Below, in pieces: positions 19,404 through 59,396 of a stretch of 64,000 nucleotides of DNA. The notes under the pieces were generated by a model that did no database searches, was not told where the DNA came from, and saw nothing but the letters and a program-made list of their open reading frames with translations. Source of the DNA: Nonomuraea sp. NBC_00507. GTDB taxonomy: Bacteria; Actinomycetota; Actinomycetes; Streptosporangiales; Streptosporangiaceae. A program made the translations under genes and the position numbers. Numbering within the stretch: the first letter of the stretch is position 1; every line of letters starts with the position of its first letter. The stretch lies in contig NZ_CP107853.1 of NCBI RefSeq assembly GCF_036013525.1, positions 7,688,001 to 7,752,000 on the forward strand, given 5' to 3'.

Positions 19404-21176
19404 TCAGTCCCACCTCAGGGCGTGATAGAGCGGCAGCGCGATCACCCAGGACGGGTTCCACGTGTTCGCCTCGCCCTTGCGCTGCCAGTTGGTCTGGAAG
19501 AACCCCTCGCCTTGCTCGCCGGGCGTGGCGAACCCCCAGTCGCCGGGCTCGCGGCAGATGCCCTGGCCCAGGGCGTGCATGATCCGGTCCGCCGCCGCCA
19601 CGTAGCGGTCGTTCCCGGTCGCCAGGCCGAAGTGCCGCAGCTCGGCGGTGGGGAAGAAGACGTCGAGGTGATGGTTCTGCACGCTGACCGCCGGCCAGCC
19701 GCTGGCCTTGAAGCCGCGCCGGTGGAACGTGCTGTCCGCGTCGAACTCCGGCGACCACGTGTAGACGAAGGTGAGCAGCCAGTCGGCGGCCGCCTCGGCC
19801 CACCGGGCGTACCGGTCGTCGCCGGTGAGCTGGAACAGCTCGGTGACCGCCTCGAAGTAGGCCATGCCCGCCTCCTTGTCCTCGCCGGAGGCGTCGAGGG
19901 TGGCGTGGGCGAAGGGCCGCTCGAAGGTCTCGGCGTGCCGGCGGTGATAGGCCGCGACCAGCTCGGCGGCCCGCCGGAGCCACACCTTGTCGCCGGTCAG
20001 CCGGTGGGCGCCGAGCATGGCCCGCGCGCACGGGATCCCCGCGGCTCCCTCGGGCCCGGGCACCGGCGTGCCGGACGGGGTCCAGCCGAGCGGCAGGATG
20101 CCCCCGTGCCGCCAGAAGAACTCGGCGGCCTCCACGACGGCCTCCGTCCACTCACCGAACTCCTCGGCGAGCAGGGCCAGGTCCGCGATCGTCTCGCCGT
20201 AGGCGCGGCTGGAGACGAACGGTTGCCCCTTCCGGTCGAACATGGCCCAGCGCTCCTCATCCAGCAGGTAGCGGCCGTGCCGCAGCCCGGGCACGGGCGT
20301 ACCGCTGCCGGAGACGTAGAACTCGGCCGCCGCGAAAGCCCGGTCGGGACGGCCGAGCCGGGCATCGCACCAGGCGAGCTTGAGGCACTGCCCGGTCCAC
20401 CCGTACAGGAACGTGCGCGGGCGCGGCCGGGTGGGGGAGGCGTAGGCCAGGTAGCCACCGGCCGGGTCCCACCGCGCGTCCAGGGCGTTCGCCTTCAGCC
20501 GGATGATCTCGGCGATCGTGAGCGGCCTGGCCCCCTCCTCGGCGACGGCCTCCTTGACCAGCGCGCGGAAACCGAAGCCGCGCGGCTCCACCCTCCCGGT
20601 GTCCAGCCGGTAGCGCGAGGTGATCGAGGCGCCGGGCGCGAGGTCCGCGTAGCCGATCTCCATCGGCGTGGTCTCGGCCTTGCTGGTGTAGCAGACGTCG
20701 GGCCGCCCGTCGAACATGATCACGCCGCTCATCGCCGCGATCACCGGCCCGTCCAGGATCCCGAGCGAGCCGTAGGCGACGGTCCCGTCGGCCGCCCGGC
20801 GCGCGACCGGCTGGGCGTACAGCGTCACGTACTGCCCGTCCCAGGCGGCGTTGACCGCCGGGATGGGCAGCCGGTGCTCCTCGCATACGAACCCCGATCG
20901 CGGCACCTCCAGCGCCGGGTCGGAGGAAGGATTGCCGTTGTAGAGCACGCCGGGGATGGTCACGTACGCGTCGTCCGTCGGCAGCTCCAGCAGGAGCCCC
21001 GCCGCGACGTCGCGGACGGTCCGCGTGCCCTCGTTGCGCCAGGTGAGGGTGAGGCTCTTGTCCGAAATCTCCAGCAGGGCGGTCAGCGGCCCCACCCCGG
21101 CCGGTACGCCGGGCGAGACGTCGACAGGGGCGACCCGCCAGGGCCGCCCCGTCGACAGCGTCAGCCGAAGCCTCAC
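19404..21176 (-). CDS. alpha/alpha-toroid protein of unknown function
   Basis: I cannot assign a family to this 590-residue protein. Residues about 1-200 look like a beta-sandwich (SLTLTWRNEGTRTVRDVAAG) and residues about 210-590 contain helical repeats rich in Trp, Tyr, His and acidic residues (FLYGWTGQCLKLAW; EDKEAGMAYFEAVTELFQLT; SVQNHHLDVFFPTAELRH), as in six-hairpin glycosidases, lyases and epimerases. It sits between GH28 and the dead apiosidase paralogue, overlapping the latter by 4 nt, so it belongs to the pectin operon. It may be an unrecognised glycosidase or unsaturated-uronide enzyme. No signal peptide. Confidence 0.6.
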   Translation of the reverse strand: MRLRLTLSTGRPWRVAPVDVSPGVPAGVGPLTALLEISDKSLTLTWRNEGTRTVRDVAAGLLLELPTDDAYVTIPGVLYNGNPSSDPALEVPRSGFVCEEHRLPIPAVNAAWDGQYVTLYAQPVARRAADGTVAYGSLGILDGPVIAAMSGVIMFDGRPDVCYTSKAETTPMEIGYADLAPGASITSRYRLDTGRVEPRGFGFRALVKEAVAEEGARPLTIAEIIRLKANALDARWDPAGGYLAYASPTRPRPRTFLYGWTGQCLKLAWCDARLGRPDRAFAAAEFYVSGSGTPVPGLRHGRYLLDEERWAMFDRKGQPFVSSRAYGETIADLALLAEEFGEWTEAVVEAAEFFWRHGGILPLGWTPSGTPVPGPEGAAGIPCARAMLGAHRLTGDKVWLRRAAELVAAYHRRHAETFERPFAHATLDASGEDKEAGMAYFEAVTELFQLTGDDRYARWAEAAADWLLTFVYTWSPEFDADSTFHRRGFKASGWPAVSVQNHHLDVFFPTAELRHFGLATGNDRYVAAADRIMHALGQGICREPGDWGFATPGEQGEGFFQTNWQRKGEANTWNPSWVIALPLYHALRWD

Positions 21177-22132
21177 GGCACCCGCCGCACCCGGATGGCC
21201 TGGTGCTCGGCCGCCGGCAGCGGCACGGTCACCGTGCCGCCGCCGTCGTGCACGCCCAGCGACCGGACCGTCATCTCCCAGGCGTCGATCACCTCGACCG
21301 CGTACCGGCCCTCAGGAAGCTCGTGCTCCCGCTGCGGGAAGCGGTGCTCCCCGCAGAACTCCAGGTAGTACTCCCCGTCCAGGGCCAGCATCGGCGCGTC
21401 CCGGTCGCGGTAGACGGCCTCCCGCGGCGTCTGGCCGACGATCCCGTCCAGCAGGCGCAGCCGCTCGACCGCCGCCCCGCGCAGCGTGCCGCCGTCGGCG
21501 GACCAGGTCAGCCCGTCGTCGTCGGCGTACCACTCGCCGTGCGTGACCGGCCGCCGCCGCAGCGCGCCGTCCCACGCCTGGTCCACGACCTCCTCGGCGG
21601 TGAGGCTCTGCCACGGCTCGTCGCCGTCGCCCTCGTAGCCGCTCTGGTCGATGTGCACCGGCTTCCAGTGGTCGCGGGTGGCCACCCACGCCTGACGCGG
21701 GCTCGCCCCCACGACGCTGCCGTGGGTGAAGATCCGCCGCCACAGCAGCGGCGAATCCTGTGCCGCCGAGATCGACAGCGGGTGGTGCCCGTGGTCCTCC
21801 TCGGCGACCAGCTCGGCCAGGCGCACCCACTCGTGCTCGCCGACCTCGGGGAAGAGCGCGGCGTCCGCGGCCAGCGACCACCAGACGTTCTCGTGCCCGG
21901 ACAGGCGTCCGACCACGTCGCGCACGTGCTCCTCGGTGGCCGGCGGCGCGAGCACGAGCTCGGCCGTCACCTCGATCGCGGCCAGCTCCGCCACCCGCTC
22001 CTCCAGGGAGACGGCGGGGAAGGCCGCCATCCTCACCCGGTCGAACGGCGAGGCCGCCAGCGTGGCCAGCGTCCGCGCGCGGCGCTTGTCCTCGTGCAGG
22101 TGCCACCCGAGCGCGGTGGTGGCCATGCCCAT
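21173..22132 (-). CDS. apiosidase-like paralogue lacking both catalytic glutamates
   Basis: The 319-residue protein aligns with the TIM barrel and C-terminal domain of the next gene (TTALGWHLHEDKRRARTL against TTCYHWTHDMDRDRERETL; then ASPFDRVRM against ESPFNKIRM) but lacks its N-terminal beta domain. The acid/base segment SVANEYDF has become SLAADAAL (Glu to Asp90, preceding Asn to Ala), and the nucleophile segment VIDEISYEG has become HIDQSGYEG (Glu to Gln163). The frame is intact, conserved elsewhere and translationally linked on both sides, so it looks like a maintained non-catalytic or altered-function protein. Possible roles are a binding or scaffold partner of the active enzyme. Confidence 0.75.
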   Translation of the reverse strand: MGMATTALGWHLHEDKRRARTLATLAASPFDRVRMAAFPAVSLEERVAELAAIEVTAELVLAPPATEEHVRDVVGRLSGHENVWWSLAADAALFPEVGEHEWVRLAELVAEEDHGHHPLSISAAQDSPLLWRRIFTHGSVVGASPRQAWVATRDHWKPVHIDQSGYEGDGDEPWQSLTAEEVVDQAWDGALRRRPVTHGEWYADDDGLTWSADGGTLRGAAVERLRLLDGIVGQTPREAVYRDRDAPMLALDGEYYLEFCGEHRFPQREHELPEGRYAVEVIDAWEMTVRSLGVHDGGGTVTVPLPAAEHQAIRVRRVP

Positions 22133-22133
22133 G

Positions 22134-23507
22134 TCAGACCCTCCTCATCCGCAGCGCCAGGTACGGCCGGCCGGGCAGCCCGACGCGCACCCGGTCGCGG
22201 TGCGTGCCGGCGACCGCCTCGATCGTCATGTTCCAGGTGTCGACCAGGTCCACCTGGTAGTCGGCGCCGGGCGGCAGTTCCACGTTGACCACGGCGGGCT
22301 GGCGCCGGCCGAGATATCGGAACCCGCCGCCCTCCTCCATGAGCCGGCGCAGGAACGCGATGCGCGGCGGGCTCTGGCCGTGCAGGGACCCGCCGTTGCC
22401 GATCCAGGGCCGGCCGGGCGAGTCGATGTACACCTCGCCGTGCCCGGCGTAGCCGCCCCGGGTCATGGCCTCCCAGAAGCGCGCGACCAGCTCCTGCGCG
22501 CTCACGTTGCCCCACCGCCGGGTCGCGTCGCCCTCGTAGGAGATCTCGTCGATCACCACGGGTTTGCCGGTCTTGACCCACTCCGTGGTGAGCGTGGCGT
22601 CCCAGTGCTGGATGCTCTGGTGCGTCACCCACGGCTTGGCGAAGTCGTACACCGAGGCGACCTCGTACATGCGAGTCCCGTTGTGGATCGACAGGAGCCG
22701 CTCGTAGGGGTCATGGCGCTTGACGGTACGCAGCAGGTCGTCCCAGTCGTCCATCGTCTTGTCGCGGTTGAAGTCGTACTCGTTGGCCACCGACCACCAC
22801 ACGTTCCGGAAAGCCGCCAGGCGGGCCACGACGTACCGGACGTAGGCGTGGTCGAGCTCGCGCCCCATGTTCTCCAGCCCGCGCCGGCCGCGGTCGTAGG
22901 GGTGGAAGAGGATCACGTCCGCCTCCACGCCGATCGCGCACAGGTCGGCGATCCGCGCCTCCAGGTGCCGGAAGAACACCGGGTTGTACCGGGTCTTGTC
23001 CTCGCCGGCGAACGGCAGCTCCGGCGGGTCCATCTGGCCGGTCGGCAGCACGCACATCCGGATCTTGTTGAACGGCGACTCGGCCAGCGACCGCAGCGTC
23101 TCCCGCTCGCGGTCGCGGTCCATGTCGTGCGTCCAGTGGTAGCAGGTCGTGCCGAACGACAGGTGGGGCGTGCCGTCGGCGTACTCGAATCTGGTGCCCA
23201 CGGCGCGGACCGGCCCGCGAGAGGTCGCCGGAGTGGCCTCGAAGGCCCCGGTGTAGCCGTCGAGCTCGGGCACGTTGCTCCGGGTGACGAACTCCCAGGA
23301 ACCCTCCCGGTCCGGCATGAAGCGGATCCGGTAGACGCCGTCGCCGTCGTAGAAGCCCTCCGCCTCCACCGTCCGGTTGCGGTAGGTGTAGCGGGCCGAC
23401 AGCTCCACCTCGGCGAACGGGTTGCCGTCCGAGGGCCCGGTCAGCTCGATCTCGTGGACGCACCAGCGCTCCACCGAGCGCTGGTGCTTCATCCGGGGCG
23501 GCGTCAC
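22134..23507 (-). CDS. apiosidase-like glycosidase (DUF5060-DUF4038-DUF5605, GH140-like)
   Basis: This 457-residue protein has an N-terminal DUF5060 beta domain (VERWCVHEIELTGP; residues about 10-95), a DUF4038-type TIM barrel (YHWTHDMDRDRERETLRSLA onward) and a C-terminal DUF5605-like beta domain. Candidate catalytic residues are Glu243 in SVANEYDF and Glu321 in VIDEISYEG. Relatives include GH140 enzymes that cut the apiose-galacturonic acid bond of RG-II. Apiose as substrate is supported by the apiose-type catabolic genes in the same locus, but is inferred. No signal peptide. It lies 1 nt before the paralogue and overlaps the binding-protein gene by 4 nt. Confidence 0.78.
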   Translation of the reverse strand: MTPPRMKHQRSVERWCVHEIELTGPSDGNPFAEVELSARYTYRNRTVEAEGFYDGDGVYRIRFMPDREGSWEFVTRSNVPELDGYTGAFEATPATSRGPVRAVGTRFEYADGTPHLSFGTTCYHWTHDMDRDRERETLRSLAESPFNKIRMCVLPTGQMDPPELPFAGEDKTRYNPVFFRHLEARIADLCAIGVEADVILFHPYDRGRRGLENMGRELDHAYVRYVVARLAAFRNVWWSVANEYDFNRDKTMDDWDDLLRTVKRHDPYERLLSIHNGTRMYEVASVYDFAKPWVTHQSIQHWDATLTTEWVKTGKPVVIDEISYEGDATRRWGNVSAQELVARFWEAMTRGGYAGHGEVYIDSPGRPWIGNGGSLHGQSPPRIAFLRRLMEEGGGFRYLGRRQPAVVNVELPPGADYQVDLVDTWNMTIEAVAGTHRDRVRVGLPGRPYLALRMRRV

Positions 23508-26083: not shown

Positions 26084-27050
26084 GTCTGATCGTCTTTCGT
26101 AGGTAGGAATAAGCGACGTGGATGCGGCCGCGGACCTCGGCGACGGACGGGTAGGAGTAGCCGTACTCGTTGTCCCAGTACTCGTCGTCGGTCTTCCGGA
26201 CGACGACGCGTGACGGCCAGCTCTTCCCGCCGTCGGCGGAGACGGCGACGTTCAGCGGCGTCCGCAGCGCCTTCTTGCGCCGCTGCCCGTCCTTGGTCAC
26301 CCAGCGGTACTGCTCGAGACTGGCGTGGTTGTAGACCAGCGCCAGCCGCCCGTCACGCAGGGCCAGGAGCTGCACCGAGGAGTCGTTGTTGGGGAGTTCG
26401 GTGGGTTCGGGGATCGACCAGGTCAGGCCGTCGGCCGAGACCGAGGCGTAAATGGAGTCGGCGCGGCGGCTGCGGAACAGCCCGAGCAGGGTGCCGTCGC
26501 CGCGGTCGGCGATCGTCATCTGGACCAGGCCCTCGCTGCCCGGCACCGGGTGCTCGGCCCAGGTCTCGCCATGGTCCGCGGAGACCATCACCGAGCTGGC
26601 CGCGCCGTACACGGGAAGGATCCACGCGTCGTCCCGGATCAGCGGGGGATGGCGGACGATCGTGCGGTCGAAGAGCACCCACGGGGCGCTCCAGGTCCGG
26701 CCGCCGTCGCGCGAGGTGCGGGCGACGACGTGGGCGGTGGGCAGGTCGTACGGCTCGCTGGAGGTGTGCAGCAGCCAGATCGTGCCATCGGCCTCGAAGA
26801 GCACCGGGTTCTGCTCGCTCCTGGCCGGGTCGGCGGCGATCACCTGGGGTTCGGACCAGGTGTCGCCCTCCAGGCCGGACAGCAGCACGTCCGTGCCCGG
26901 GTGGCCCTCCTCCGGGCCGCTGAACCAGGTGCACAGCAGGTCGCCGCCCGTCGTGTGGAGGAGGTTGGCGGCGTGGCTGTCGGGGCCGTGCGGGGCGGGC
27001 AGGAAGGCGCCGCCGTACCGCAGGACACCGTCGAAACGCGGATCCGTCAC
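26016..27050 (-). CDS. second BNR-repeat (sialidase-fold) protein, cytoplasmic form
   Basis: The GTG at 27050 overlaps the OppF stop (GTGA), which sets a 344-residue product. It has three clear Asp-boxes ([24 protein letters not shown]) and ends its propeller with [11 protein letters not shown], parallel to the secreted neighbour. It lacks a signal peptide and the RIP motif. It therefore looks like an intracellular partner of the secreted BNR protein, each processing the same kind of linkage on its own side of the membrane. The last 20 or so residues (Ala/Gly-rich) lie in the region overlapping the next gene and may be a recent extension. Confidence 0.75.
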
Positions 27051-28069
27051 GACACCCCCGCCTGGACGGTGACGCCCCGCAGGCTCAGATCGCTCGCCAG
27101 ATGGCAGGCCACCTGGCGACCCTGGATCTCCCGCAGCGGCGGCACGTCGGTCCGGCACACGTCCTGGGCGTAGGCGCAGCGCGGGTGGAACGGGCAGCCC
27201 GGCGGCGGGCTGGCCGGATCGGCCGGGTCGCCGCGCAGCACCACCCGGTCGCGCCGCTTGGCCGAAGGATCCGGGTCAGGGACCGCCGACAGCAGCGCCT
27301 CGGTGTAGGGGTGCAGCGGCCGCTCGTAGAGCGACTCCTTGGGGGCGAGCTCCACGACCCGGCCCACGTACATGACCGCCACCACGTCGGCCACGTGCTC
27401 GATAACGCTCAGGTCGTGGCTGATGAACAGGTAGCTCAGGCCCGACTCCTCCTGCAGGTCCATCAGCAGGTTGAGGATCTGCGCCCGCACCGACACGTCC
27501 AGCGCGCTGACCGCCTCGTCGGCGACCACCAGCCGGGGCGAGAGGGCCAGCGCCCGCGCGATGCCGACGCGCTGGCGCTCGCCCCCGCTGAACGCGTGCG
27601 GATAGCGGTCGGCGTACTCGGGCCGCAGCCCCACCCGCCGCAGCAGCTCGCGCACCCGGTCGCCGATCTCGTCCTTGGTGCCGTAGCCGTGCACGCGCAT
27701 GGGCTCGCCGATGATCTCCCGCAGCGTCTTGCGCGGGTTGAGCGAGGAGTGCGGATCCTGGAAGATCATCCGGACCTCGGCGCGGTACGGCTTGAGCTCC
27801 TTCTCCTTCAGCGCCGCCAGGTCCACCTGCGTGCCGTCGGCCCGGTGGAACAGGATCCGGCCGCCGGTCGGCTCGTAGGCGCGCACCACGCAGCGGCCGA
27901 GCGTGGTCTTGCCGCTGCCCGACTCACCGACCATGCCCAGCGTGCTGCCGGCGCGGATGGTCAGGCTCACGCCGTCGACGGCCTTCACCAGGCCGACCTG
28001 CCGGCCGAGCAGGCCGCTGCGGATCGGGAAGTGCTTGGTCAGGCCGTCGATCTCCAGCAAACCGCTCAT
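27047..28069 (-). CDS. oppF: oligopeptide/oligosaccharide ABC transporter ATP-binding protein, OppF type
   Basis: The 340-residue ATPase of the peptide/nickel/opine family has Walker [11 protein letters not shown]-loop [11 protein letters not shown], signature FSGGERQR and Walker B LVVADE, followed by the typical C-terminal cysteine-rich Opp/Dpp extension ([12 protein letters not shown], with further Cys) that may bind an Fe-S cluster. The start at 28069 overlaps the OppD stop by 4 nt. With OppD it powers an importer encoded by the same operon. The gene context indicates pectic oligosaccharides rather than peptides as cargo, as is known for several plant-cell-wall loci. Confidence 0.92.
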
Positions 28070-29061
28070 GAGGACTCCGAGTCGTACAGGAGGCAGGACA
28101 CGCGCCCGCCGTTCACCGGGAAGCTGCCGGGCACCTCGACGTCGCACCGCCCGGCCTGGAAGCTGTCGCAGCGCGGGTGGAACGGGCAGCCGGCCGGCCG
28201 GTCGTAGGGCGGCGGCACCATGCCCCTGATCGCCTCCAGCCGGGTCCGTGAGGGCCGGCCGAGGCGCGGGATCGACTGCAGCAGCGCCTGGGTGTAGGGG
28301 TGTTTCGGCGCGCTGAGCACCTGCTCGGCCCGGCCGTACTCGACGACCCTGCCCAGGTACATCACCGCCATGGTGTCGGCCACCTGCGCGGCCACCCCCA
28401 GGTCGTGGGTGATGAGCATGACGGCCATGCCGAACTCGCCCTGCAGGTCCTTCAGCAGCTCCAGGATCTGCGCCTGCGTGGTGACGTCGAGCGCGGTCGT
28501 CGGCTCGTCGGCGATGAGCAGGCTCGGCCGGCAGACCAGCGCCATCGCGATCATCGCCCGCTGGCGCATGCCGCCGCTCAGCTCGAAGGGGTAGGCGTCC
28601 ACGCGCCGGTCCGGGTCCGGGATGCCGACCCGGTCCAGGATCTCGATCGCGCGTTTGCGCGCCACCTTCTTGTCCACGCGCTCGTGCAGCCGGACCGCCT
28701 CGACGATCTGGCTGCCGATCGTGTGCACCAGGCTCAGCGAGGCCATCGGCTCCTGGAAGACCATCGCGATCTCCTGCCACCGGACCTGGCGCAGCAGCTT
28801 GCTCTCGGCGCCGACCAGCTCGACGCGGCCGCCGTCCCGGTGCAGGACGATCCGCCCGCTCTCGATGTGCCCGGCCCGGTCCACCAGGCGCAGGATCGAG
28901 CGGGCCATCACGCTCTTGCCGCAGCCCGACTCGCCCACCACCGCCAGCGTCTCGCCGCGGTGGACGCGCAGGTCCACGCCGTCCACCGCGCGCACGACGC
29001 CCTCGTCCATGTGGAACTGCGTGCGCAGGTCCTCGATCTCAAGCAGCACGTCCGCGGGCAC
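28066..29061 (-). CDS. oppD: oligopeptide/oligosaccharide ABC transporter ATP-binding protein, OppD type
   Basis: This 331-residue ATPase has Walker [10 protein letters not shown]-loop FQEPMASL, signature LSGGMRQR and Walker [13 protein letters not shown], plus the C-terminal GCPFHPRC cysteine motif. It starts with GTG at 29061, with GGGAGG about 10 nt upstream, and overlaps the end of the OppC frame by 23 nt. It forms the heterodimeric ATPase pair with OppF. The operon order A-B-C-D-F is the classical one. Confidence 0.92.
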
Positions 29062-30322: not shown

Positions 30323-30324
30323 CG

Positions 30325-33317: not shown

Positions 33318-33327
33318 GGATACTCCG

Positions 33328-35550: not shown

Positions 35551-35592
35551 GTGAGCGCTCACCTTCCGCCCCGAATATGCGAGCGGCGTCTC

Positions 35593-35610
35593 GTGAGAAT
35601 GTTTATTCAC
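35593..35610. promoter_or_regulatory. inverted-repeat operator candidate upstream of the PL1-opp operon
   Basis: GTGAGAATGTTTATTCAC has arms GTGA/TCAC and GAAT/ATTC around a short AT-rich centre, 43 bp upstream of the PL1 start. A looser repeat GAAT-N8-ATTC follows at about 35615-35631. The core TTTATTCA also occurs between GH42 and GH2. Binding by a locus regulator (the SorC or the GntR protein) is plausible but unproven. The rest of 35551-35674 shows no gene. Confidence 0.45.
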
Positions 35611-35674
35611 GCTTGAATGGCTGCGATTCATCACATCGTGAACGACACAGATGTGACTGTCAAGACACGAAAAG

Positions 35675-35704
35675 AAACCGCCGTGGATTTCCACGGCGGT
35701 TTCG
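35675..35704 (-). terminator. intrinsic terminator of the PME-to-SorC operon
   Basis: A perfect 13-bp stem (GAAACCGCCGTGG / CCACGGCGGTTTC) with a 4-nt loop lies 13 nt after the SorC stop. Read on the minus strand it is followed by TTTTCG, giving a U-rich tail. It separates the upstream operon from the PL1 operon promoter. Confidence 0.85.
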
Positions 35705-43040: not shown

Positions 43041-43128
43041 CCTGAACCTCCCGGCTGAATGTCTAACGTATAATGAATATGTATTCGGCACCCTATGTAT
43101 GCGGAAGTGATCGGTCAAGAGCGCGGGC
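43041..43128 (-). promoter_or_regulatory. promoter region of the PME operon with a GAATA-TG-TATTC palindrome
   Basis: Between the GH106 stop and the PME start lies an AT-rich patch. GAATATGTATTC (43075-43086) has 5-bp inverted arms around TG. TTATAC on the minus strand (about 43068-43073) could be a -10 box, placing the palindrome over the core promoter, as expected of a repressor site. The TGAATA core recalls other promoters of this locus. Confidence 0.45.
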
Positions 43129-48369: not shown

Positions 48370-48377
48370 GTGACTCC

Positions 48378-50282: not shown

Positions 50283-50283
50283 G

Positions 50284-51090
50284 TCATCCCTTCGTGGCCC
50301 CGGCGGTGAGGCCGCTGATGATGTGCCGTTGCATGAAGACGAAGAAGACCAGCAGCGGGGCGATGGCCAGCAGCAGCGTCGGGAAGACCACCGTGTAGTC
50401 CGTGGCGTACTGGCTGACCGCGGCGTAGACGCCGGTGGTCACCGTGTAGAGGCCGCTGCCGGGGCCCAGGATGATCTGCGGGTTCACGAAGTCGTTCCAC
50501 ACCGAGAAGGTGTTGAGGATGACCATCGTGGCGACGGCGGGCTTCATCAGCGGGAACACGATCCGCCAGAAGGTCCGCAGCCGTCCCGCGCCGTCCACCG
50601 CGGCCGCCTGGTCGAGCACGGCCGGGATCGTGGCGATGTACCCGGCGTAGAGGAAGATGGAGAAGGGAAGGGTGAGCGTGGTCTCGAACAGCACGAACCC
50701 GCGGATCGTGCCCATCAGCCCGAGCGTCTTGAGCACGTAGACGACCGGGATGACCAGTACCTGCCCGGGGATGAACGTCCCGGCCAGGAAGAACAGCATG
50801 AGCACGCGAAAACGGCGCTTGGGGCTGCGCGCGATCACGTACGCCGCCGGCGCGGCCAGCACCACCGACAGCACGTTGACCGCCACCACGAACAGCAGCG
50901 TCACCGCGTAGCCCTTGACCACGTTGAACTGCGGGTTGGTCAGCGCCCGCCCGAGCGGCTCCAGCGTGAGCGGCCCCAGGCCGAACGGGTCGGCCAGGAT
51001 GTCCTGCTGCCCCTTGAAGGCGTTGACCGTCAGCACGTAGAGCGGGATGACCATGAACGCCGTGGTCAGCCAGAGGAAGCCCTTTCTCAC
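50284..51090 (-). CDS. sugar ABC transporter permease, CUT1 (MalG type)
   Basis: The GTG at 51090 overlaps the partner permease's stop (GTGA), giving 268 residues (VRKGFLWLTTAFMVIPLYVL). Six helices are visible, and the EAA-type loop reads IPAVLDQAAAVDGAGRLRTF with the downstream FPLMKPA. It pairs with the MalF-type permease. No ATPase is encoded here; CUT1 systems in actinomycetes commonly share a single MsiK-type ATPase encoded elsewhere. Confidence 0.92.
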   Translation of the reverse strand: MRKGFLWLTTAFMVIPLYVLTVNAFKGQQDILADPFGLGPLTLEPLGRALTNPQFNVVKGYAVTLLFVVAVNVLSVVLAAPAAYVIARSPKRRFRVLMLFFLAGTFIPGQVLVIPVVYVLKTLGLMGTIRGFVLFETTLTLPFSIFLYAGYIATIPAVLDQAAAVDGAGRLRTFWRIVFPLMKPAVATMVILNTFSVWNDFVNPQIILGPGSGLYTVTTGVYAAVSQYATDYTVVFPTLLLAIAPLLVFFVFMQRHIISGLTAGATKG

Positions 51091-52013
51091 TGGTCCACCG
51101 CCTGCTTGCGCAGCCTGGTCACGACGTAGGCGAGGGCCGCCGTCACCACCATGAGGATCACCGACTGCGCCGAGCCGAAGCCCAGGCGGCTGTCGTGGAA
51201 GGAGTTCCACAGGATCAGGTACGCCACGGTCTGGGTCTGGCCCGCCGGGCCGCCCGCGGTCAGCGACACCACCAGGTCGTACGTCTTGAGCAGCGTCACC
51301 AGCGACAGCACGATGTTCACCGTCACCGACGGGCCCAGCGCGGGCAGCGTCACGTGCCGGAACACCTGCCACCGCGTCGCACCGTCGATCCGCGCCGCCT
51401 CCACGAGCGAGTGCGGCACCGCCTGCAGCCCCGCCAAATACAGCACCACGTTGACGCCGAACCCCGCCCACACCAGGACCGCGATCATGGTCACCGTGGC
51501 CCACGCCGGGTCGGACAGGAACGGCAGCACCTGCCCGCCCCCCCTCGTGACCATGCTGTTGACCGCGCCGGTGGTGCCGAGGATCGCCGACCACAGGAAG
51601 CCGACCACCAGCGCGCTCAGCACGTGCGGGTAGAACAGCACGATCCTGAAGAAGGTGTTCAGCCGCGACGCGCCGTTCACCAGCAGCGCGAACCCGAGAC
51701 CGAGCAGGTTCAGCCCGGCCGTGCCCGCCGCGGCGACCAGCAGCGTCACCAGGGCGGCGCGGCCGAGGTCAGGGTCGTCGAGCAGCTCGGCGTAGTTGGC
51801 GGCGCCGACGAAGGCGGGGCTGGCGCTGAACCCGTCCCAGTCGGTCAAGCTCAAGTAGAGGGCGAGACCGACCGGGACGATCAGCATGACGGTGTAGAGC
51901 ACGGTGGCCGGCGCCACCATGATCGACGCGGCCAGCCACTCGCGGGTCCGCGGCCCGGCCGGTGCGGCCTGCCTGGCGGCCACGACGGGCGGTGCCTCGC
52001 TGGTCAACGTCAT
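51087..52013 (-). CDS. sugar ABC transporter permease, CUT1 (MalF type)
   Basis: The 308-residue permease starts MTLTSEAPPVVAA, has six transmembrane helices (first at about residues 28-50, APATVLYTVMLIVPVGLALY) and the EAA-type loop VPHSLVEAARIDGATRWQVF. The start overlaps the binding-protein stop by 4 nt (ATGA). Together with the downstream permease it forms the channel for an oligosaccharide importer. Confidence 0.93.
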   Translation of the reverse strand: MTLTSEAPPVVAARQAAPAGPRTREWLAASIMVAPATVLYTVMLIVPVGLALYLSLTDWDGFSASPAFVGAANYAELLDDPDLGRAALVTLLVAAAGTAGLNLLGLGFALLVNGASRLNTFFRIVLFYPHVLSALVVGFLWSAILGTTGAVNSMVTRGGGQVLPFLSDPAWATVTMIAVLVWAGFGVNVVLYLAGLQAVPHSLVEAARIDGATRWQVFRHVTLPALGPSVTVNIVLSLVTLLKTYDLVVSLTAGGPAGQTQTVAYLILWNSFHDSRLGFGSAQSVILMVVTAALAYVVTRLRKQAVDQ

Positions 52014-53278
52014 GATCGTCCGGCCAGCCAGCGGTCCACGCCCGCGGCCACGTCCTTGGGCGACTTGCCGACGTACAGCCCCTGGACCTCGGTGTTCCAC
52101 GCGGCGTTGAACCCCTTGGGCAGGGTGGCGTCGCCGTACCCCTCGCCCTGCGCGACCCCGGCGGGCGCCTTGTCGAGGATCTCCTGGACCTGCTGCTCCA
52201 GCGGGGTGAAGTCACGCTGCACGCCGGTGCGGAAGTTGCCGTCCTGCTGCAGCTGGCTCTTGACCGCCGCCGGGTCGGTGACCAGCCACTGCACCAGCTT
52301 GAGCGCCGCCGCCTGCTGCTTGCTCGACTTCATGACCATGTACGGCGCCGCGAGCGTGGCACCCTGCGGGCCGGGGTAGGCCTGGCCCTCGTTCACCGGG
52401 GCGGGGAAGACGCCGACCTCGAAGTCCTTCTTGGCCTTGGCCTCGGAGGCGGTGAACCAGCTTCCCATGACGTACATGGCCGATTTGCCGGACAGGAACG
52501 CGGTCTCGGCGTCGGCGTACTTCATGCCGAGCGCGTTCTTGTCCACATAGCCCTTGTCGATCCAGGTCTTGTAGCGCTCGAGGTACGGCAGGAGCGACTC
52601 GCCCGCCTTGAGCTTGCCGGCGGAGACGTCCTGCTGCCAGGACGGGTGCAGTTGCGCGCGGGAGGGGTTGGACAGCTGCAGCAGCTGCAGCCCCGTCAGG
52701 AAGTCGCCGCCCGTCTGCAGCGGCAGGAAGCCCGCGTCCTTCAGCTTGGCCATCGCCGCGTCGAACTCCTCGAACGTGGTCGGCGGCGCGCTGATCTTCG
52801 CCTTCTCGAAGGTGCTCTTGTTGTAGAAGACCAGCGACTGCGCCTGCACGCCGACACCGACCGCGTAGATCTTGCCGCCGAGCTTGGCCTGGTCGGCCAG
52901 CGGAGTCTGCGCGGCCCACGGCTGGCCGGTCAGGTCGAGCACCTGCGCGGCCAGCTTCTGGTCCGGCATCAGCGTCTCCACCACGTCGGGCGGGTTGCCC
53001 GCGGCCAGCTGCTGGGGGAGCGTGTCGGCCACGCCCTTGCCGGTGGGTGCCTCGATCTTGACGTCGATGCCCGGGTTGGCCTGCTCGAACGGCTTCACCA
53101 GGCCTTCCCAGTAGGCCTGGGTGAGGTTGGGGGAGATGTTGATGAGCATGCGGACGGTGGCCGTGCCGCCCGGGGACTGGCTCTGGCCCTGGCCGCCGTC
53201 GGAGAATCCGCCTCCGCCGCATCCGCTGAGGACGAGGACGGACAGCAGCGCGAGGGATGAGGGGTGGGGGGTTCGCAT
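52010..53278 (-). CDS. sugar-binding lipoprotein of the CUT1 transporter
   Basis: The 422-residue protein has a lipoprotein signal peptide with lipobox VLSGC (Cys20), a Gly/Ser/Gln linker, and a family 1 solute-binding fold (YWEGLVKPFEQANPGIDVKI; YAVGVGVQAQSLVFYNKS; MYVMGSWFTASEAKAKKDF). It is the first gene of the 10-kb minus-strand operon ending at the GH106 remnant, divergent from the GntR-type regulator. Its ligand is probably an oligosaccharide released by the secreted enzymes. Confidence 0.92.
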   Translation of the reverse strand: MRTPHPSSLALLSVLVLSGCGGGGFSDGGQGQSQSPGGTATVRMLINISPNLTQAYWEGLVKPFEQANPGIDVKIEAPTGKGVADTLPQQLAAGNPPDVVETLMPDQKLAAQVLDLTGQPWAAQTPLADQAKLGGKIYAVGVGVQAQSLVFYNKSTFEKAKISAPPTTFEEFDAAMAKLKDAGFLPLQTGGDFLTGLQLLQLSNPSRAQLHPSWQQDVSAGKLKAGESLLPYLERYKTWIDKGYVDKNALGMKYADAETAFLSGKSAMYVMGSWFTASEAKAKKDFEVGVFPAPVNEGQAYPGPQGATLAAPYMVMKSSKQQAAALKLVQWLVTDPAAVKSQLQQDGNFRTGVQRDFTPLEQQVQEILDKAPAGVAQGEGYGDATLPKGFNAAWNTEVQGLYVGKSPKDVAAGVDRWLAGRS

Positions 53279-53422: not shown

Positions 53423-54463
53423 ATGATGCTGACCGCTGAGGAAACCAACGCGTTGCGTGCCTGGGCCCGCGAGGGCGGCGGCCGGAGCCTGCGCAGCCGC
53501 ATCGTGCTGGCCTGCGCCGAGGGCCTGTCGCGCAAGGAGATCGCCGAGCGCCTGGACGTGAGCCCGGCGACGGTCGCCAAGTGGTGCGCGCGGTTCGTCG
53601 AGCGCGGCCTCGACGGGCTGTCCGACGCGCCGCGCCCGGGCCGCCCGCGCAGCGCCGAGCGGCAGGAGGCCGAGCGGGTGATCGCCGCGGCCGCCGGGCG
53701 CGTCGCCGTGCCGTCCACCCGGACCATGGCCAGGCAGCTTGGGCTGTCGCAGTCGACGGTCGCGCGCCTGCGGCAGGAGCACCGGGTCGCCCCGCCCGTG
53801 CCCGCCCAGCCGGTCGCCCGCGAGCTGCTCTCCGACCGCGTCTACGCGCAGTTGCGCGGCTGGATCGTCGCCGGCGAGCTGACCGCTGGGCAGCGGCTGG
53901 TGGAGGCCGAGGTGGCCCGCCGGGCCGGCACCAGCCAGGCGCCCGCCAGGGAGGCGATCAAGCGGCTGGCGCACGAGGGCCTGGTCGTCTCCTACCCGAA
54001 CCGGGGCAGCTACGTCGCGGAGATCTCCGACGAGCAGGCCCGCGAGGTCCGTGACGTCCGCGTGCTGCTGGAGGAATACGCCGCCCGCGAGGCCGCCACC
54101 CGCATCCAGCCCGAGACCCTGCGCCTGCTGGCCGGGGACGTGGACGAGATGCGCGCGGCCGCCGCCGGCGGCGACATCGGCGCCTTCCGCGACGCCGACC
54201 TGAGCTTCCACCGGCGGGTCTGCGGCGCGTGCGGCAACTCCTTCCTGCTGCGGCTCTGGCGGACGCTGGAGTCGAGCCTGTGGAACCTGCACGTGGTGAG
54301 CAACCCCCTCTACGACGGCGACTGGATGGTGATGGCCGGCCATCACGATGTGCTGGTGGAGGCCCTGGCGGCGGGCGACCCCGACGAGGCCGCCCGCCTG
54401 TTCGCCGCCCACGCCCGGGGCGAGGCCTCCCGCACCCCCCTGAACGTCAGGAGGCCGGCGTGA
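53423..54463 (+). CDS. GntR/FCD-family regulator with an extra N-terminal transposase-like DNA-binding domain
   Basis: The 346-residue protein contains two DNA-binding units. Residues about 1-120 resemble the N-terminal part of IS630-type transposases: [53 protein letters not shown], and a second helix-turn-helix ([19 protein letters not shown]). Residues about 132-200 are a GntR winged helix ([38 protein letters not shown]). Residues about 205-335 are an all-helical FCD ligand-binding domain with the usual Asp/His positions ([22 protein letters not shown]). It very likely regulates the divergent CUT1 operon. No DDE catalytic domain is present, so the transposase part is used only for DNA binding. 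Confidence 0.85.
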
Positions 54464-55528
54464 GGTCGTAGACGGCGCCCTGGCGGGTTTCCACGACGAT
54501 CACGCCGGGCTCCGGCCTGGAGCCCGGCACCGGCCTGCCGTGCGCGGTGACCGTGACCGGGGAGGCGGTCCGCAGCGTGAGCGTCCCGCCCAGCGGCGAA
54601 CGGACGCGCCCGCCGGTGAGCGCGCCGCCCGCCCACGACAGGTCGACCTCGAAGCCGCCGCGGGCGCGCAACCCGCGGAAGGACCCCTCCGGCCAGGCGG
54701 CGGGAAGCGCGGGCAGCAGGTGCACCTCGGACGCGTGGCTCTGCAGCAGCATCTCCGTGATCCCCGACACCCCGCCGAAGTTACCGTCGATCTGGAACGG
54801 CGGGTGCAGGTCGAACATGTCGGCGCCGACCGGGCGGGCACGAGCAGGTTCGACAGCCGCTTGTACGCCTCGGCGGGCTCCAGCAGCCGCGCCCAGAAGT
54901 TGATCTTCCAGGCGAGCGACCACCCGGCGGCGCGTCCCGCGCCCGGGCCACCCGCGGGTCCGGGTCCAGTCCGAGGACGGCGGCGGCCGAGGCGTAGGCG
55001 CCGAACAGGTCGCGCAGGATCTGCATGTCCATCGTCGGGCCGGCGCAGATGCTGACGTTCTCCCCGCCGTCCTCGTGGTGGCCCACCTCCGGCGAGTGCG
55101 ACGGGTTCGTCACCAGGTAGCCGGTCTTCGGGTCGGTCTGCAGCGTGTCGAGGAAGAACTCCACCGACCCGGCGATGAGCGGGAAGTGCTCGCGCAGCCG
55201 CTTCTCGTCGCCGGTGTAGAGGTAGTGCTCCCACAGCACCTCGTTCTGCACGGTGCCGAACGCCGTGCGGAACATGGCGATGACCTGGATCTCCCACTTC
55301 GGCGTACCGTCCCGCGTCTTCTCCTGCTCTCGGGGCGCGTCCTTGATCGGGTTGAACTTGGTCTTCGGCTCGCACGACAAAAAGGCCACACCTGCGAAGG
55401 TCGTACCAGAGGACGAGAGGGGAAGGGCCGGCGGTGGCGGCATTGGCGGTGCCGTTGACCAGCATGGATCCGGCGGTGGCCGCTAAGCCGGTGGCGAGGA
55501 CGCCTTGGCGGGTGATCCCTTCGGACAC
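54447..55528 (-). pseudogene. GH95-family glycosidase remnant (alpha-L-fucosidase/alpha-L-galactosidase)
   Basis: The GTG at 55528 (GGAG upstream) begins a Tat-less signal ([20 protein letters not shown]). After about 35 codons the frame changes and several hundred N-terminal residues of GH95 are absent. The next frame reads [40 protein letters not shown] and [12 protein letters not shown]; then another change leads to [20 protein letters not shown]; and a last frame gives [18 protein letters not shown] and the C-terminal domain to 54447. The remaining coding length is about 350 residues of a normal 750-800. It is clearly dead. The 3' end overlaps the regulator's end by 17 nt. Confidence 0.8.
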
Positions 55529-55551
55529 GGATACTCCTATCGTTACTCGAC

Positions 55552-56192: not shown

Positions 56193-56225
56193 GTTTCCGG
56201 CAGATTGCACAAGCCGCACACTATC

Positions 56226-56283
56226 CGGATGATCCGAAGTTTCCTAGACTTCATCCGATGAAAGGGGAATTTCATCCGATGAA
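56226..56283 (+). promoter_or_regulatory. triple palindromic operator candidate at the start of the RLP operon
   Basis: CGGAT-G-ATCCG (56226-56236) is a perfect palindrome. Two identical copies of the near-palindrome TTCATCCGATGAA follow at 56250-56262 and 56271-56283, exactly 21 bp apart (two helical turns). The second covers the start codon at 56279; the first contains an alternative in-frame ATG. AGGGGA between them is the ribosome binding site. A regulator bound here would block both transcription and translation start. Confidence 0.6.
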
Positions 56284-56923
56284 GAAGCTTGGACTACTTC
56301 ATACCTCCGCCACGCTGGTCCCGGTCTTCGCCGAGCTCTGTGCCCGCCACCTGCCCGGCGTCGAGACGTACAACCTGGTGGACGACAGCCTCATCAAGAA
56401 CACGATCGCCGAGGGACGCCTGTCCCCGGCCACCGCCCGCCGGGTCGCCGCACACATCGGATCCCTGGAGGCGGCCGGCGCCGGCCACATCCTGGTCACC
56501 TGCTCCTCCATCGGCGCCGCCGTCGAGGCGGCCGAGCCGCTGACCGGCGTCCCGGTGCTGCGCGTGGACCGCCCCATGGCCGACCGGGCGGTCGCGCTCG
56601 GCCGCCGCATCGGCGTCATCGCGACCCTGGCCACCACCCTCGAACCCACGGCAGACCTGGTACGGCGGCGCGCTCTGGCGGCCGGTCGCGAGATCGACCT
56701 GACCGTCGCGGTGTGCGACGGCGCCTTCGAGGCGCTCATGGGTGGCGACCCCGAAGCACACGACGACTCCGTAGCGCGCACCCTCGACCGGCTGGGCGCC
56801 GAGGCCGACGTGATCGTGCTGGCCCAGGCGTCGATGGCGCGCGTCCTCGACCGCGTCCCCTCGCCTGTCCCGGTCCTCACCAGCCCGGCGCTGGCGATCG
56901 AGCACCTGGCGGGCGCGCTGTGA
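56279..56923 (+). CDS. Asp/Glu racemase-superfamily protein
   Basis: The start MKKLGLLHTSATLVP (56279) follows AGGGGA by about 11 nt; an in-frame ATG at 56258 would add seven residues encoded by the operator repeat. The 214-residue protein has the two half-sites of the aspartate/hydantoin/maleate racemase superfamily: ILVTCSSIGAAVEAA with Cys near residue 81 and, in the second half, VIVLAQASMARVL, where the second catalytic Cys is replaced by Ala. One-cysteine members are usually isomerases or decarboxylases rather than racemases. Being first in the RuBisCO-like/DUF1537 operon, it probably acts on an acid intermediate of that pathway. Its exact reaction is unknown. Confidence 0.75.
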   Translation: MKKLGLLHTSATLVPVFAELCARHLPGVETYNLVDDSLIKNTIAEGRLSPATARRVAAHIGSLEAAGAGHILVTCSSIGAAVEAAEPLTGVPVLRVDRPMADRAVALGRRIGVIATLATTLEPTADLVRRRALAAGREIDLTVAVCDGAFEALMGGDPEAHDDSVARTLDRLGAEADVIVLAQASMARVLDRVPSPVPVLTSPALAIEHLAGAL

Positions 56924-58215
56924 GGACGGTGGCCACGTATCGGATCCTCACCCGCCTGCCGCTGGAGCGGGCGGCGGCGGCGATCGCGGGCGAGCAGAGC
57001 ACCGGGACGTTCGTCAGCGTGCCGGGGGAGACCGCGGACCTGCGCGCACGGCACAGCGCCGTCGTGGAGGAGATCACCCCGATCCCCGCGTCCGGCGAGG
57101 CCCTCGCCGGGGCTTCCTCCGAGGCCCTGCCCGGCGCCTCCGGCGAGGCTCTTCCGAGCGCCTTCGGTGAGGCTCTTCCGGGTGCCTCCGGGGATGGCCC
57201 GCTGACCGCCGGGCTGGTGAAGATCTCCTTCCCGCTGGCCAACACCGGCCCGTCCCTCACGAACCTGCTCCCCGTGATCGCCGGCAACCTCTACGAGCTG
57301 CGCGAGCTGGCCGGGCTCAAGCTCGTCGACGTGGACCTGCCCGACGCCTTCGCCGCGGCGTACCAGCCGGCGCAGTTCGCCGTCGAGGGCACCAGACGCC
57401 TGGCCGGACGCCCCGACGGCGTGCTCGTCGGCACGATCGTCAAGCCCAATGTCGGACTGCGCCCCGACGACTACACGCGCCTCGTGCGCGAGCTCGGCCT
57501 GGCCGGCATCGATTTCATCAAGGACGACGAGGTCAACGCCGACTGCCCGCCCGCGCCCCTGCCCGACCGCGTCCGCGCCGTCACCGCGGCACTCGACGAG
57601 GTGGAACGGCTAACCGGGCGGCGCCCGATGTACGCCTTCAACATCAGCGACGAACCCGACCGGATGCTGCGCCACCACGACCTGGTCGCCGACTCCGGCG
57701 GCACCTGCGTCATGGTCACCCTCAACATCGTCGGATTCCCGGCCACGGCCATGCTCCGCCGCCACGCCCGTGTCCCCATCCACGCCCACGTCACCGGCAT
57801 CGGCGCGCTCGCCCGCCACCCCTGGCTCGGCATCGGGCACGTCGCCTACCAGAAACTCGCCCGCCTCACGGGCGTCGACCACCTGCACTGCGGGGGGTTC
57901 AGCAGCAAGTTCTACGTCACCGACGACGAGGTGGCCGCCACCGTCGAGGCCGTGCGGACGCCGCTGCTCGGCGGCTTCCCGTGCCTGCCGGTGCTGTCGT
58001 CGGCGCAGTGGGCCGGGACGGCGCCGACGACCTGGCAGCGTACCGGCACCACCGACCTGCTGGTCCTGGCCGGCGGCGGCGTGCTCGGACACCCGGACGG
58101 CGCGGCGGCGGGAGTGGTCAGCATCCGGCAGGCGTGGGCCGCCACGCTCGCCGGGGTCCCGCTGCGGGAGTCGGGGGAGCCGGAACTGGTCCGCGCCCTG
58201 GAGTACTTCGGATGA
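56920..58215 (+). CDS. RuBisCO-like protein (type IV), 3-oxo-isoapionate-4-phosphate enzyme candidate
   Basis: The GTG at 56920 overlaps the previous stop (GTGA); 431 residues. It has the RuBisCO large-subunit fold: an N-terminal alpha/beta domain, then the barrel with Lys175 in GTIVKPNVG and the metal-site series Lys201-Asp202-Asp203-Glu204 in DFIKDDEVN, so the carbamylatable lysine and its Asp/Glu partners are retained. His in HAHVTGIGA and GGG in LAGGGVLGH also fit. RLPs paired with a DUF1537 kinase are known for decarboxylating or hydrolysing 3-oxo-isoapionate-4-phosphate in D-apionate catabolism. The locus context (apiosidase, apiose genes) supports that. Residues 58-89 are a repeat-encoded insertion. 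Confidence 0.85.
   Translation: MRTVATYRILTRLPLERAAAAIAGEQSTGTFVSVPGETADLRARHSAVVEEITPIPASGEALAGASSEALPGASGEALPSAFGEALPGASGDGPLTAGLVKISFPLANTGPSLTNLLPVIAGNLYELRELAGLKLVDVDLPDAFAAAYQPAQFAVEGTRRLAGRPDGVLVGTIVKPNVGLRPDDYTRLVRELGLAGIDFIKDDEVNADCPPAPLPDRVRAVTAALDEVERLTGRRPMYAFNISDEPDRMLRHHDLVADSGGTCVMVTLNIVGFPATAMLRRHARVPIHAHVTGIGALARHPWLGIGHVAYQKLARLTGVDHLHCGGFSSKFYVTDDEVAATVEAVRTPLLGGFPCLPVLSSAQWAGTAPTTWQRTGTTDLLVLAGGGVLGHPDGAAAGVVSIRQAWAATLAGVPLRESGEPELVRALEYFG
57091..57186 (+). repeat. 24-bp in-frame minisatellite within the RLP gene, four units
   Basis: Units start at 57091, 57115, 57139 and 57163, each 24 bp, encoding variants of SGEALPGA (SGEALAGA, SSEALPGA, SGEALPSA, FGEALPGA). The copies diverge at several positions. 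The insertion lies between the N-terminal domain strands (after ITPIPA and before DGPLTAGLVKI), where related proteins have a short loop. Confidence 0.85.
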
Positions 58216-59396
58216 CCCGCTTCGCCTTCGTGGCCGACGACTTCACCGGCGCCACCGACGCCCTGTGGCAATTCCGGCGGTTCGGGCTGACGGGGTCGCT
58301 CGTCACGGACGTGGCGTGGATCTCGCCGTCGGACGACGTGGTCGGCATCGCCACCACGGCGCGGGCCGCGGCCGATCCGGTCGCGGTCGCGCTCCCGCTG
58401 CTGACGGAGCTGGCTCGGCTGGGGCCGCAGATCCTGCAGTACAAGATCTGCTCCACGTTCGACTCCGCGCCGTCGGTGGGGAGCATCGGCGCCGTCATCG
58501 CGGCCGCGCACCGGACCGGCCTGGCCCGGGGTCCCGTCCCGGTCGTGGCGGCGCAGCCCGAGCTCGGGCGGTACACCAGCTTCGCGACGCACTTCGTGCG
58601 CGTGGGCGACTCCGTCGAGCGCCTCGACCGCTATCCGCCGATGCGCGACCATCCCGTCACACCGGCCTCCGAGGCCGATCTGCGGGTACGGCTGGCCGAA
58701 CAGGGGGCCGGTCGCGTGGGCTGGTTGCCGGCGCGGGCGTCCGCGCGGGAGTTCCGGGAGCCGGCCGGATACGCGGCGCTCGTGGCCGACGCGACCACCT
58801 CGGCCGACCTGCGGGCGCTCGGCGACCTGCTGCTCGCGGAACTGCGGGACGGACCCCATCTGTGCGTCGGCTCCGGCGGGCTGAGCTACGCCCTGGCCTC
58901 CTCCCTGGGCTGCGCTGAACGTCCCGGCAGGCGGCTGGATCCGGTGGCGCCGGTGCTGGTCGTGTCGGGAAGCCGCTCGCCGATCACCCTCCGGCAGATC
59001 GAGGTGGCCGAGCGCGCCGGGTGGCGCGTGCTGGACGGGCCGGCGGGGGCGAAGGAGAGCCTGCGCGCGGGACGGCACACGATCGTCCAGACCACGCGCG
59101 GGCCCGCTCGTGACCCCGGCGACGTCGGCAAGCTGCTCGGCGCCGTCGCGCGCTCCGCCGTACGGGCCGGGCTCGTCCGGCGGCTGGTCGTGGCGGGCGG
59201 GGACACGTCGGGGCAGGTCGTAAGTGCTCTCGGAGCCCGGTCGCTGTCGGTGGTCGCGGAGCTGGCGCCGGGCGGGCCGGTGTGCGTGCTGACCTCCGGG
59301 GATCCGGCGTGCGACGGGCTCGAGGTGGCGTTGAAGGGTGGGCAGGTGGGCGGCGACGACTTCCTCCTTCGGGCGGCTGACAGAGAAAGTCCCTGA
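58212..59396 (+). CDS. four-carbon acid sugar kinase family (DUF1537), 3-oxo-isoapionate kinase candidate
   Basis: The ATG at 58212 overlaps the RLP stop (ATGA). The 394-residue protein has the DUF1537 N-terminal domain (FAFVADDFTGATDALWQFRR; YKICSTFDSAP) and nucleotide-binding C-terminal domain (LVVAGGDTSGQVVSALGAR; LTSGDPACDGLEVALKGGQV, ending GGDDFLLRA). Members phosphorylate tetronates, 3-oxo-acid sugars and 3-oxo-isoapionate. Together with the RLP it makes a two-step module: kinase first, RLP second. Translation coupling supports one pathway. Substrate assignment is inferred from the RLP pairing. Confidence 0.85.
   Translation: MTRFAFVADDFTGATDALWQFRRFGLTGSLVTDVAWISPSDDVVGIATTARAAADPVAVALPLLTELARLGPQILQYKICSTFDSAPSVGSIGAVIAAAHRTGLARGPVPVVAAQPELGRYTSFATHFVRVGDSVERLDRYPPMRDHPVTPASEADLRVRLAEQGAGRVGWLPARASAREFREPAGYAALVADATTSADLRALGDLLLAELRDGPHLCVGSGGLSYALASSLGCAERPGRRLDPVAPVLVVSGSRSPITLRQIEVAERAGWRVLDGPAGAKESLRAGRHTIVQTTRGPARDPGDVGKLLGAVARSAVRAGLVRRLVVAGGDTSGQVVSALGARSLSVVAELAPGGPVCVLTSGDPACDGLEVALKGGQVGGDDFLLRAADRESP

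Follow-up and report, generated by a model that had tools for sequence, protein, structure and literature searches.

D-apionate catabolism reportedly involves OiaK, a 3-oxo-isoapionate kinase, and OiaT or OiaX, a RuBisCO-like protein (RLP), which Carter et al. are said to have described in 2018. The non-oxidative D-apiose set, which we take to consist of an isomerase, an FGGY kinase and a split transketolase, presumably uses neither an RLP nor a DUF1537 kinase. BT1003 of Bacteroides thetaiotaomicron is a GH127 enzyme reported as an aceric acid hydrolase, its fellow enzymes being otherwise characterised as β-L-arabinofuranosidases (PMC10850190). We compared with these systems a window of 64,000 nucleotides from the soil actinomycete Nonomuraea sp. 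NBC_00507 (G000; 12.9 Mb in two contigs; window at G000:C1:7688001-7752000), which carries an island of pectin-degrading genes with an RLP gene, a DUF1537 kinase gene and a gene for an Asp/Glu-racemase-fold protein, here termed RACE. We propose that this island degrades rhamnogalacturonan II (RG-II) and that aceric acid, not apiose, is most likely the sugar broken down by its intact RACE-RLP-DUF1537 triad, and give this reading a probability of about 0.6.

The window pair resembles the OiaK and OiaT/OiaX pair in having an RLP beside a DUF1537 kinase, in its RuBisCO-like catalytic residues and in its predicted substrate, a β-keto branched-acid phosphate. It differs in that both proteins fall below the equivalog cut-offs (as do the scanned pairs linked to the apionate oxidoisomerase ApnO), in that ApnO was not found in the genome, and in having a racemase-like third gene and a GH127-type gene in the same island. 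The non-oxidative D-apiose set appears to be represented by remnants of all four enzymes in the island and by an intact copy elsewhere in the genome. A first-pass annotation of this DNA had described an RG-II island in which an apiose-type set has decayed and an RLP/kinase pair, taken as a second apiose route, is intact; the description stands, and the apiose role of the pair is not supported.

The RACE-RLP-DUF1537 triad

The three genes lie on the plus strand and encode RACE (56258-56923, 221 aa; PF01177, 83 bits), the RLP (56920-58215, 431 aa, GTG start; PF00016 and PF02788) and the DUF1537 acid-sugar kinase (58212-59396, 394 aa; PF07005, 140 bits; PF17042, 86 bits). Read in the DNA, the RACE stop and the RLP start overlap in GTGA, and the RLP stop and the kinase start in the 4-bp ATGA; with their open frames, the RLP and kinase are as intact and tightly coupled as previously described, and RACE, the third co-directional gene, which overlaps the RLP start, had been overlooked. 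An RLP was found in 12 of 54 Nonomuraea genomes (a thirteenth match, in G032, was set aside at E 6e-4 and 31% identity over 97 residues), and in all 12 RACE lies on the same strand, immediately before it. Nonomuraea is also the source of the closest named relatives of the window RLP. The same search of the 54 genomes found no RLP in G046, a genome of the same species, and a RACE orthologue (75%) lies at G048:C321:24089-24721, in a Nonomuraea genome where the RLP search found none.

The RLP falls within the RuBisCO superfamily (PF00016, 190 bits against a cut-off of 30.1; 330 bits to PDB entry 3nwr) and retains K175, K201, D203, E204, H290, K330 and S361, which we take to be the equivalents of the RuBisCO catalytic residues. 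An in-frame, imperfect 24-bp repeat of 4.3 copies (57087-57190, plus strand) lengthens the protein and is absent from 17 aligned relatives, one of which, P0037, carries another short repeat close to this position. RACE shares with the Asp/Glu/hydantoin racemases (PF01177) the first-cysteine motif, TCSS, and the fold, its AlphaFold2 (AF2) model (pLDDT 95.5) matching aspartate, glutamate and hydantoin racemases. It differs at the second-cysteine motif, which presumably corresponds to LAQ[AG]SM in RACE. Cys82 of TCSS is thus the only conserved cysteine, where the cofactor-independent racemases have two catalytic ones, and both motifs are invariant in 27 sequences (one alignment held 28 of 29 members, one longer than 320 aa having been dropped, and one held 27). 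No sequence relatives of RACE were found in the PDB at E up to 0.01.

Ratios of non-synonymous to synonymous substitution rates (dN/dS) against G037 and G002 were 0.26-0.28 (RACE), 0.22-0.26 (RLP), 0.27-0.36 (kinase) and 0.28-0.29 (c16, a GH127-like gene of the island). With values of 0.22-0.36, all four genes look maintained, and the triad is under purifying selection.

RLP loci and the apionate route

OiaX and OiaK are the best models for the window proteins, and comparison with them had been proposed in the first-pass annotation. The RLP scores 372.7 bits against OiaX (NF042437) and the kinase 214.2 bits against OiaK (NF042436), both below the cut-off of 700, and we therefore do not file the RLP as OiaX. 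The ApnO-linked RLPs (451-514 bits to OiaX) and kinases (499-506 bits to OiaK) are also below 700, and the c16-linked pair of locus L048 (470 and 495 bits) scores like them, which leaves the question unsettled by the models alone. No OiaT model was among the hits, and some relatives carry an OiaT-type name in their source annotation.

A route through apionate would also need upstream oxidation genes, whose absence from the genome had been named beforehand as counting against it. The search was made for ApnO, which we take to be the c10 cluster of PF16896 proteins, and found none in the 12 RLP-bearing Nonomuraea genomes, our own included, while all 7 positive-control genomes (7 of the 16 ApnO genomes) were matched; this argues against the pair as a second apiose route. 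The ApnO label is backed by neighbouring ApnL-like lactonases in 4 of 4 cases scanned (285-362 bits, ApnL cut-off 750). Neither the window nor the Nonomuraea stretches that were fetched gave a match of ApnL type at E up to 1e-20.

To place the triad among its relatives, we fetched 80 RLP loci from named genomes (the best 80 of a longer list) and clustered the neighbouring genes. A GH127-type gene (cluster c5 or c16) is present in 38 loci, ApnO in 16 others and neither in 26, and RACE lies inside the fetched stretch in 22/38, 1/16 and 3/26 of them, respectively; glycosidases and transporters aside, it is the commonest gene of the c5/c16 loci after the RLP and kinase. No locus holds both c5 and c16, and L091 is the sole locus with c5 and ApnO. 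Over 89 loci, c5/c16 and ApnO occur together in one (Fisher 7e-4), a count that includes L027/L116 and L028/L111, whose identical RLPs look like the same genomes entered twice. Of the 23 c5 loci in which an RLP was called, 20 have the GH127 gene immediately ahead of it, on the same strand. A genome-wide search found RACE in 33/33 c5/c16 genomes against 7/16 ApnO genomes, 5 of them strongly (Fisher 5.6e-6); it covered 33 of the 37 c5/c16-only loci (without L036, L045, L058 and L076) and 16 of the 17 ApnO loci (without L083), with L091 counted as an ApnO locus. The genome search did not find RACE for L065. In L105 and L106, from Verrucomicrobiota and Planctomycetota, the genes run RLP-DUF1537-RACE, with c55 next.

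In a tree of 95 RLPs (90 called RLPs, with over-long open reading frame (ORF) starts trimmed, and 5 from plasmids with labels set by hand), the window lies inside a clade of 40 rows with support 100/99. Beside the window this clade holds 19 c5-linked rows, 5 c16-linked rows and 15 rows with neither (13 Nonomuraea, L097 and L104), the neighbour labels of the window and L120 (both c16) being set by hand; none is ApnO-linked within the fetched stretches. Reading function from RLP residues was given up, as five weak positions were the only differences.

Some loci have other settings. In L123 (6175-10528, a Croceibacterium plasmid), an RG-II-like locus, a distant GH127-like gene, whose product is of another GH127 subtype, overlaps and directly precedes RLP-DUF1537. 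In L121 and L124, from Azospirillum and Bradyrhizobium plasmids, RLP-DUF1537 lies near TRAP transporters and '3-keto-5-aminohexanoate cleavage' proteins, a setting that by its gene content would fit neither apiose nor aceric acid. L090 has two adjacent RLP ORFs with DUF1537, GH140-like and ApnO genes. In our own genome, a second DUF1537 protein (L118:9954-12287, ~7.353-7.355 Mb) carries a fused PdxA-like domain, which exceeds the cut-off of the PdxA model, lies beside an apparent transporter, judged by eye, and looks like part of a four-carbon acid sugar pathway.

GH127-type hydrolases and a proposed route for aceric acid

The c5 protein of L042 gives 661 bits to PDB entry 5mqo, titled 'Glycoside hydrolase BT_1003', against 351 bits for the next-best GH127. 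It scores 800 bits to the AcerHdlse model (NF049879), whose cut-off is 950, so that even this BT1003-like protein stands below it. In 21 of 25 loci c5 is BT1003-like (L042 and 20 others at 64-94% identity to it), and c5 of L102 and L106 is 43-46% identical to L042. In related operons, BT1003-like c5 is the gene immediately ahead of the RLP. The window protein of cluster c16 (13864-15540, plus strand, 558 aa) is our candidate intracellular acericase. It is 56-68% identical to full-length c16 proteins from RLP loci of Kribbella, Streptomyces, Paenibacillus and Cohnella, and gives very little Pfam signal, GH127M falling short of its cut-off (23.8 bits, cut-off 24.2). Like BT1003, it has a GH127-like fold, as predicted in an AF2 model (pLDDT 77) for which GH127/GH146 structures take PDB ranks 1 to 21, BT_1003 included, at TM ~0.5, and an E-x-C...CC motif. 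Its E300-x-C302 and C398-C399 repeat, in matching order, the motifs of the Cys3-Glu zinc site described for GH127/GH146 (PMC10850190). It differs from BT1003 in that no PDB sequence match was found up to E 0.1, and it was not matched by AcerHdlse. The ordinary, β-L-arabinofuranosidase-like GH127 of the window (12058-13773, minus strand; PF07944) was rejected as acericase, with 4qjy as its best match (332 bits), 5mqo third (296 bits) and 366 bits to AcerHdlse (cut-off 950).

Across the 54 genomes of the genus, the 12 that carry c16 are precisely those with a full-length RLP, and the distance between the two genes is 41-90 kb in the 7 genomes where both are on one contig. No signal peptide was seen by eye on the N-termini of c16 and c5 (window, L048 and L042), and the release of aceric acid would therefore probably be intracellular. 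The whole proposed set (c16 as candidate GH127-type hydrolase, RACE, DUF1537 and RLP) lies within the window.

Aceric acid, an uncommon branched sugar, is 3-C-carboxy-5-deoxy-L-xylose, and we know of no other RG-II sugar whose carboxyl is borne by a tertiary carbinol carbon. 3-Oxo-isoapionate is HOCH2-CO-C(OH)(COOH)-CH2OH, and the sole difference of the 2-ketose of aceric acid is CHOH-CH3 in place of CH2OH. By these structures, the aceric acid ketose would closely resemble the substrate known for the RLP and kinase. The identity of aceric acid is in keeping with the Spellman 1983 title that PMC12168206 cites; PMC12168206 also describes RG-II as occurring in all plants. RLPs are reported to decarboxylate or to transcarboxylate/hydrolyse 3-oxo-isoapionate-4-phosphate (PMC6302742).

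Gene content, integrity, clade and co-occurrence are observed; from genomic context and chemistry we infer the substrate, every reaction and the role of RACE as follows. A GH127-type hydrolase (c16 here, BT1003-like in Microbacteriaceae and kin) would free aceric acid, probably inside the cell, and an aldose-ketose isomerase, for which RACE is the best candidate, would convert it to HOCH2-CO-C(OH)(COOH)-CHOH-CH3. The DUF1537 kinase would phosphorylate the CH2OH of this ketose, and the RLP would then handle the branch carboxyl as known RLPs do with 3-oxo-isoapionate-4-phosphate, either by transcarboxylation/hydrolysis to 3-phosphoglycerate and L-lactate, which we favour, or by decarboxylation to CO2 and 5-deoxypentulose-1-phosphate. 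Since aceric acid already carries its carboxyl on a tertiary carbinol, dehydrogenase, lactonase and oxidoisomerase would be unneeded. RACE is proposed as the isomerase, with modest confidence, because isomerisation is the sole extra step and RACE the commonest remaining gene of the c5/c16 loci. More tentatively, and as less likely than not, these would form a complete three-enzyme route (RACE as isomerase, DUF1537 as kinase, and the RLP moving the carboxyl and cleaving to 3-phosphoglycerate and L-lactate) in use in Actinomycetota, Paenibacillaceae, Bacteroidota, Planctomycetota and Verrucomicrobiota. Our literature searches, over open-licence papers, returned no aceric acid catabolic pathway among the matches listed.

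Several observations weigh against the assignment to aceric acid. RACE is also present in 7 of the 16 ApnO genomes, and a comparison of ApnO-linked with GH127-linked RLPs found no clear specificity switch, with 5 weak positions. The c16-linked and ApnO-linked pairs are not told apart by their OiaX and OiaK scores. The RLP of L123, beside its GH127-like gene, groups with ApnO-type RLPs, and c5 of L033 and L091 is another GH127 subtype, 21-23% identical to L042. The co-occurrence of c16 and the RLP may reflect one large island inherited whole, and c16, whose model fits GH127 only at TM ~0.5, may be a β-L-arabinofuranosidase of the same side chain. No BT1003-like enzyme was found in our own genome (best 321 bits, 40%). 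Finally, an ApnO homologue is present in 20 of the 33 c5/c16 genomes, comprising 18 of Microbacteriaceae and kin (36-39%), one Streptomyces (40%) and one Cohnella with two copies (53%), so that the rule 'GH127-linked means no ApnO in genome' is false for these 20.

In 5 of 5 Microbacterium genomes inspected (of the 18), this ApnO-like gene lies ~11-23 kb from the RLP, together with an ApnL-like lactonase (202 bits to ApnL, cut-off 750, in the one scanned), a short-chain dehydrogenase/reductase, an epimerase-type protein and a DhaK-type kinase; triose-phosphate-isomerase and RpiB-type genes occur in one locus each among the Microbacterium loci scanned. We take this set to be the decarboxylase/erythrulose branch of apiose use, which is free of RLP and DUF1537. 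Judged by gene content, these Microbacterium therefore appear to combine an RLP-free apiose pathway with a separate hydrolase-RLP-kinase operon for another substrate.

The pair could instead be the OiaK/OiaT-like end of the D-apionate route, with apionate supplied by unrecognised enzymes or from outside the cell. We consider this unlikely: it agrees with OiaX and OiaK as best models, with the use of same-superfamily RLPs of similar model scores by ApnO-linked loci and with the GH140-like protein of the island, whereas ApnO was not found in the 12 RLP-bearing Nonomuraea genomes, an apiose-type transketolase is kept in all 12, and the 40-row clade holds no ApnO-linked row. We also count RACE against it, as it presumably has no role in the apionate route.

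Rather improbable, in our view, is a triad acting on another branched or acid sugar of pectin or of plant glycosides, with the GH127 linkage merely marking RG-II islands. The direct GH127-RLP order in 20/23 c5 loci speaks against this, and aceric acid is, as far as we know, alone among RG-II sugars in its tertiary-carbinol carboxyl; on the other side, RLP-DUF1537 pairs do occur in other settings, such as the TRAP/BKACE plasmid loci L121 and L124 and the c30 aldolase loci, and the GH127/GH146 enzymes are mostly arabinofuranosidases (PMC10850190). We hold it very improbable that the RLP/kinase pair is itself a leftover of the island's decay, as its broken neighbours and the repeat expansion in the RLP might suggest, in view of the dN/dS of RACE, RLP and kinase, the retained catalytic residues and the open frames.

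If the aceric acid reading is true, one of the oddest RG-II sugars would be a new natural substrate for RLPs, and a PF01177 protein may have a sugar-isomerase role. It would also define enzymes, open to testing, with which soil bacteria could use RG-II completely, and would correct the names 'ribulose-bisphosphate carboxylase' and '3-oxoisoapionate-4-phosphate transcarboxylase/hydrolase' on some such genes.

The decayed apiose-type set and the remainder of the island

The apiose-type set of the window lies on the minus strand and, as the first-pass annotation held, is broken at every enzyme when compared with the syntenic island of G037, in which the isomerase, transketolase N-subunit (TKn), transketolase C-subunit (TKc) and FGGY genes are uninterrupted. 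The FGGY kinase remnant (36714-37844) has lost ~121 N-terminal residues, TKc is reduced to 62 aa (37836-38021), TKn (38027-38632) has lost ~112 N-terminal residues, and the xylose-isomerase-like sugar isomerase (38780-39576) is in two pieces in different frames; the FGGY remnant and a transketolase piece are fused within one ORF (36711-39557). The adjoining SorC-family regulator (35717-36721, minus strand; PF04198) is intact, with 85-86% identity to G037 and G002, and is alone retained in the islands of G002 and G040, from which the non-oxidative set is gone. No close match to window positions 36.0-42.0 kb is present in G046, which has only pieces of 65-86% identity.

This decay had been read as a switch from one apiose route to the other. 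We reject that reading because isomerase, TKn, TKc, FGGY and SorC genes are all present and intact elsewhere in the same genome (G000:C1, ~7.121-7.130 Mb), because TKc of this family (matches at E up to 1e-80 only) is present in 12/12 RLP-bearing Nonomuraea genomes against 9/42 others (Fisher 8.6e-7), and because of the ApnO count. Because of this TKc distribution, the modules go together and do not replace each other: the apiose-type set and the RLP module co-occur in the genus, the opposite of replacement. Genes for an isomerase-like protein (weak PF02952), transketolase and FGGY are also found at the RLP loci L041, L044 and L048. Nor is the damage specific to one pathway, since the GH106 rhamnosidase (43135-45845, minus strand) is broken by a frame change near 44.3-44.4 kb and GH95 (54453-55239, minus strand; PF22124, 28 bits, cut-off 27) has lost more than half of its length.

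The other pectin enzymes were largely as annotated: GH78 (15543-18146, plus strand) and GH28 (18130-19500, minus strand), both by Pfam, a CE8 pectin methylesterase (41601-43118, minus strand; PF01095, 94 bits) and a GH141-like gene (Pfam) are present in addition to GH106, GH127 and the GH95 remnant. The PL1 placed at 33328-35694 was not recovered, Pfam recognising Big_7 only. The island had been drawn at 21173..59396, a span that leaves GH28, GH78 and GH127 outside, to its left, and with them the GH127-like c16 gene. The expected GH140-like apiosidase is present (22134-23507, minus strand; PF13204, PF16586, PF18310), next to a second GH140-like protein (21173-22132, minus strand) in which a C-terminal DUF5605 is the only domain recognised and which is 39% identical to a 404-aa Kribbella relative over residues 107-402.

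The minus strand also carries an Opp-type oligosaccharide/peptide ABC transporter (27047-33317), an intact RraA-like aldolase (47614-48369; PF03737, NF006093 above cut-off; 87% to G002) and a sugar ABC transporter with two permeases and a solute-binding protein (50284-53278). An ARAGORN tRNA-Arg call at 3778-3863, on the strand opposite to a fucosidase gene (2534-3958, minus strand), is probably false. A nucleoside-hydrolase-like gene (39567-40442) is shared with the G037 and G002 islands, and adjoins the apiose-type set in G037.

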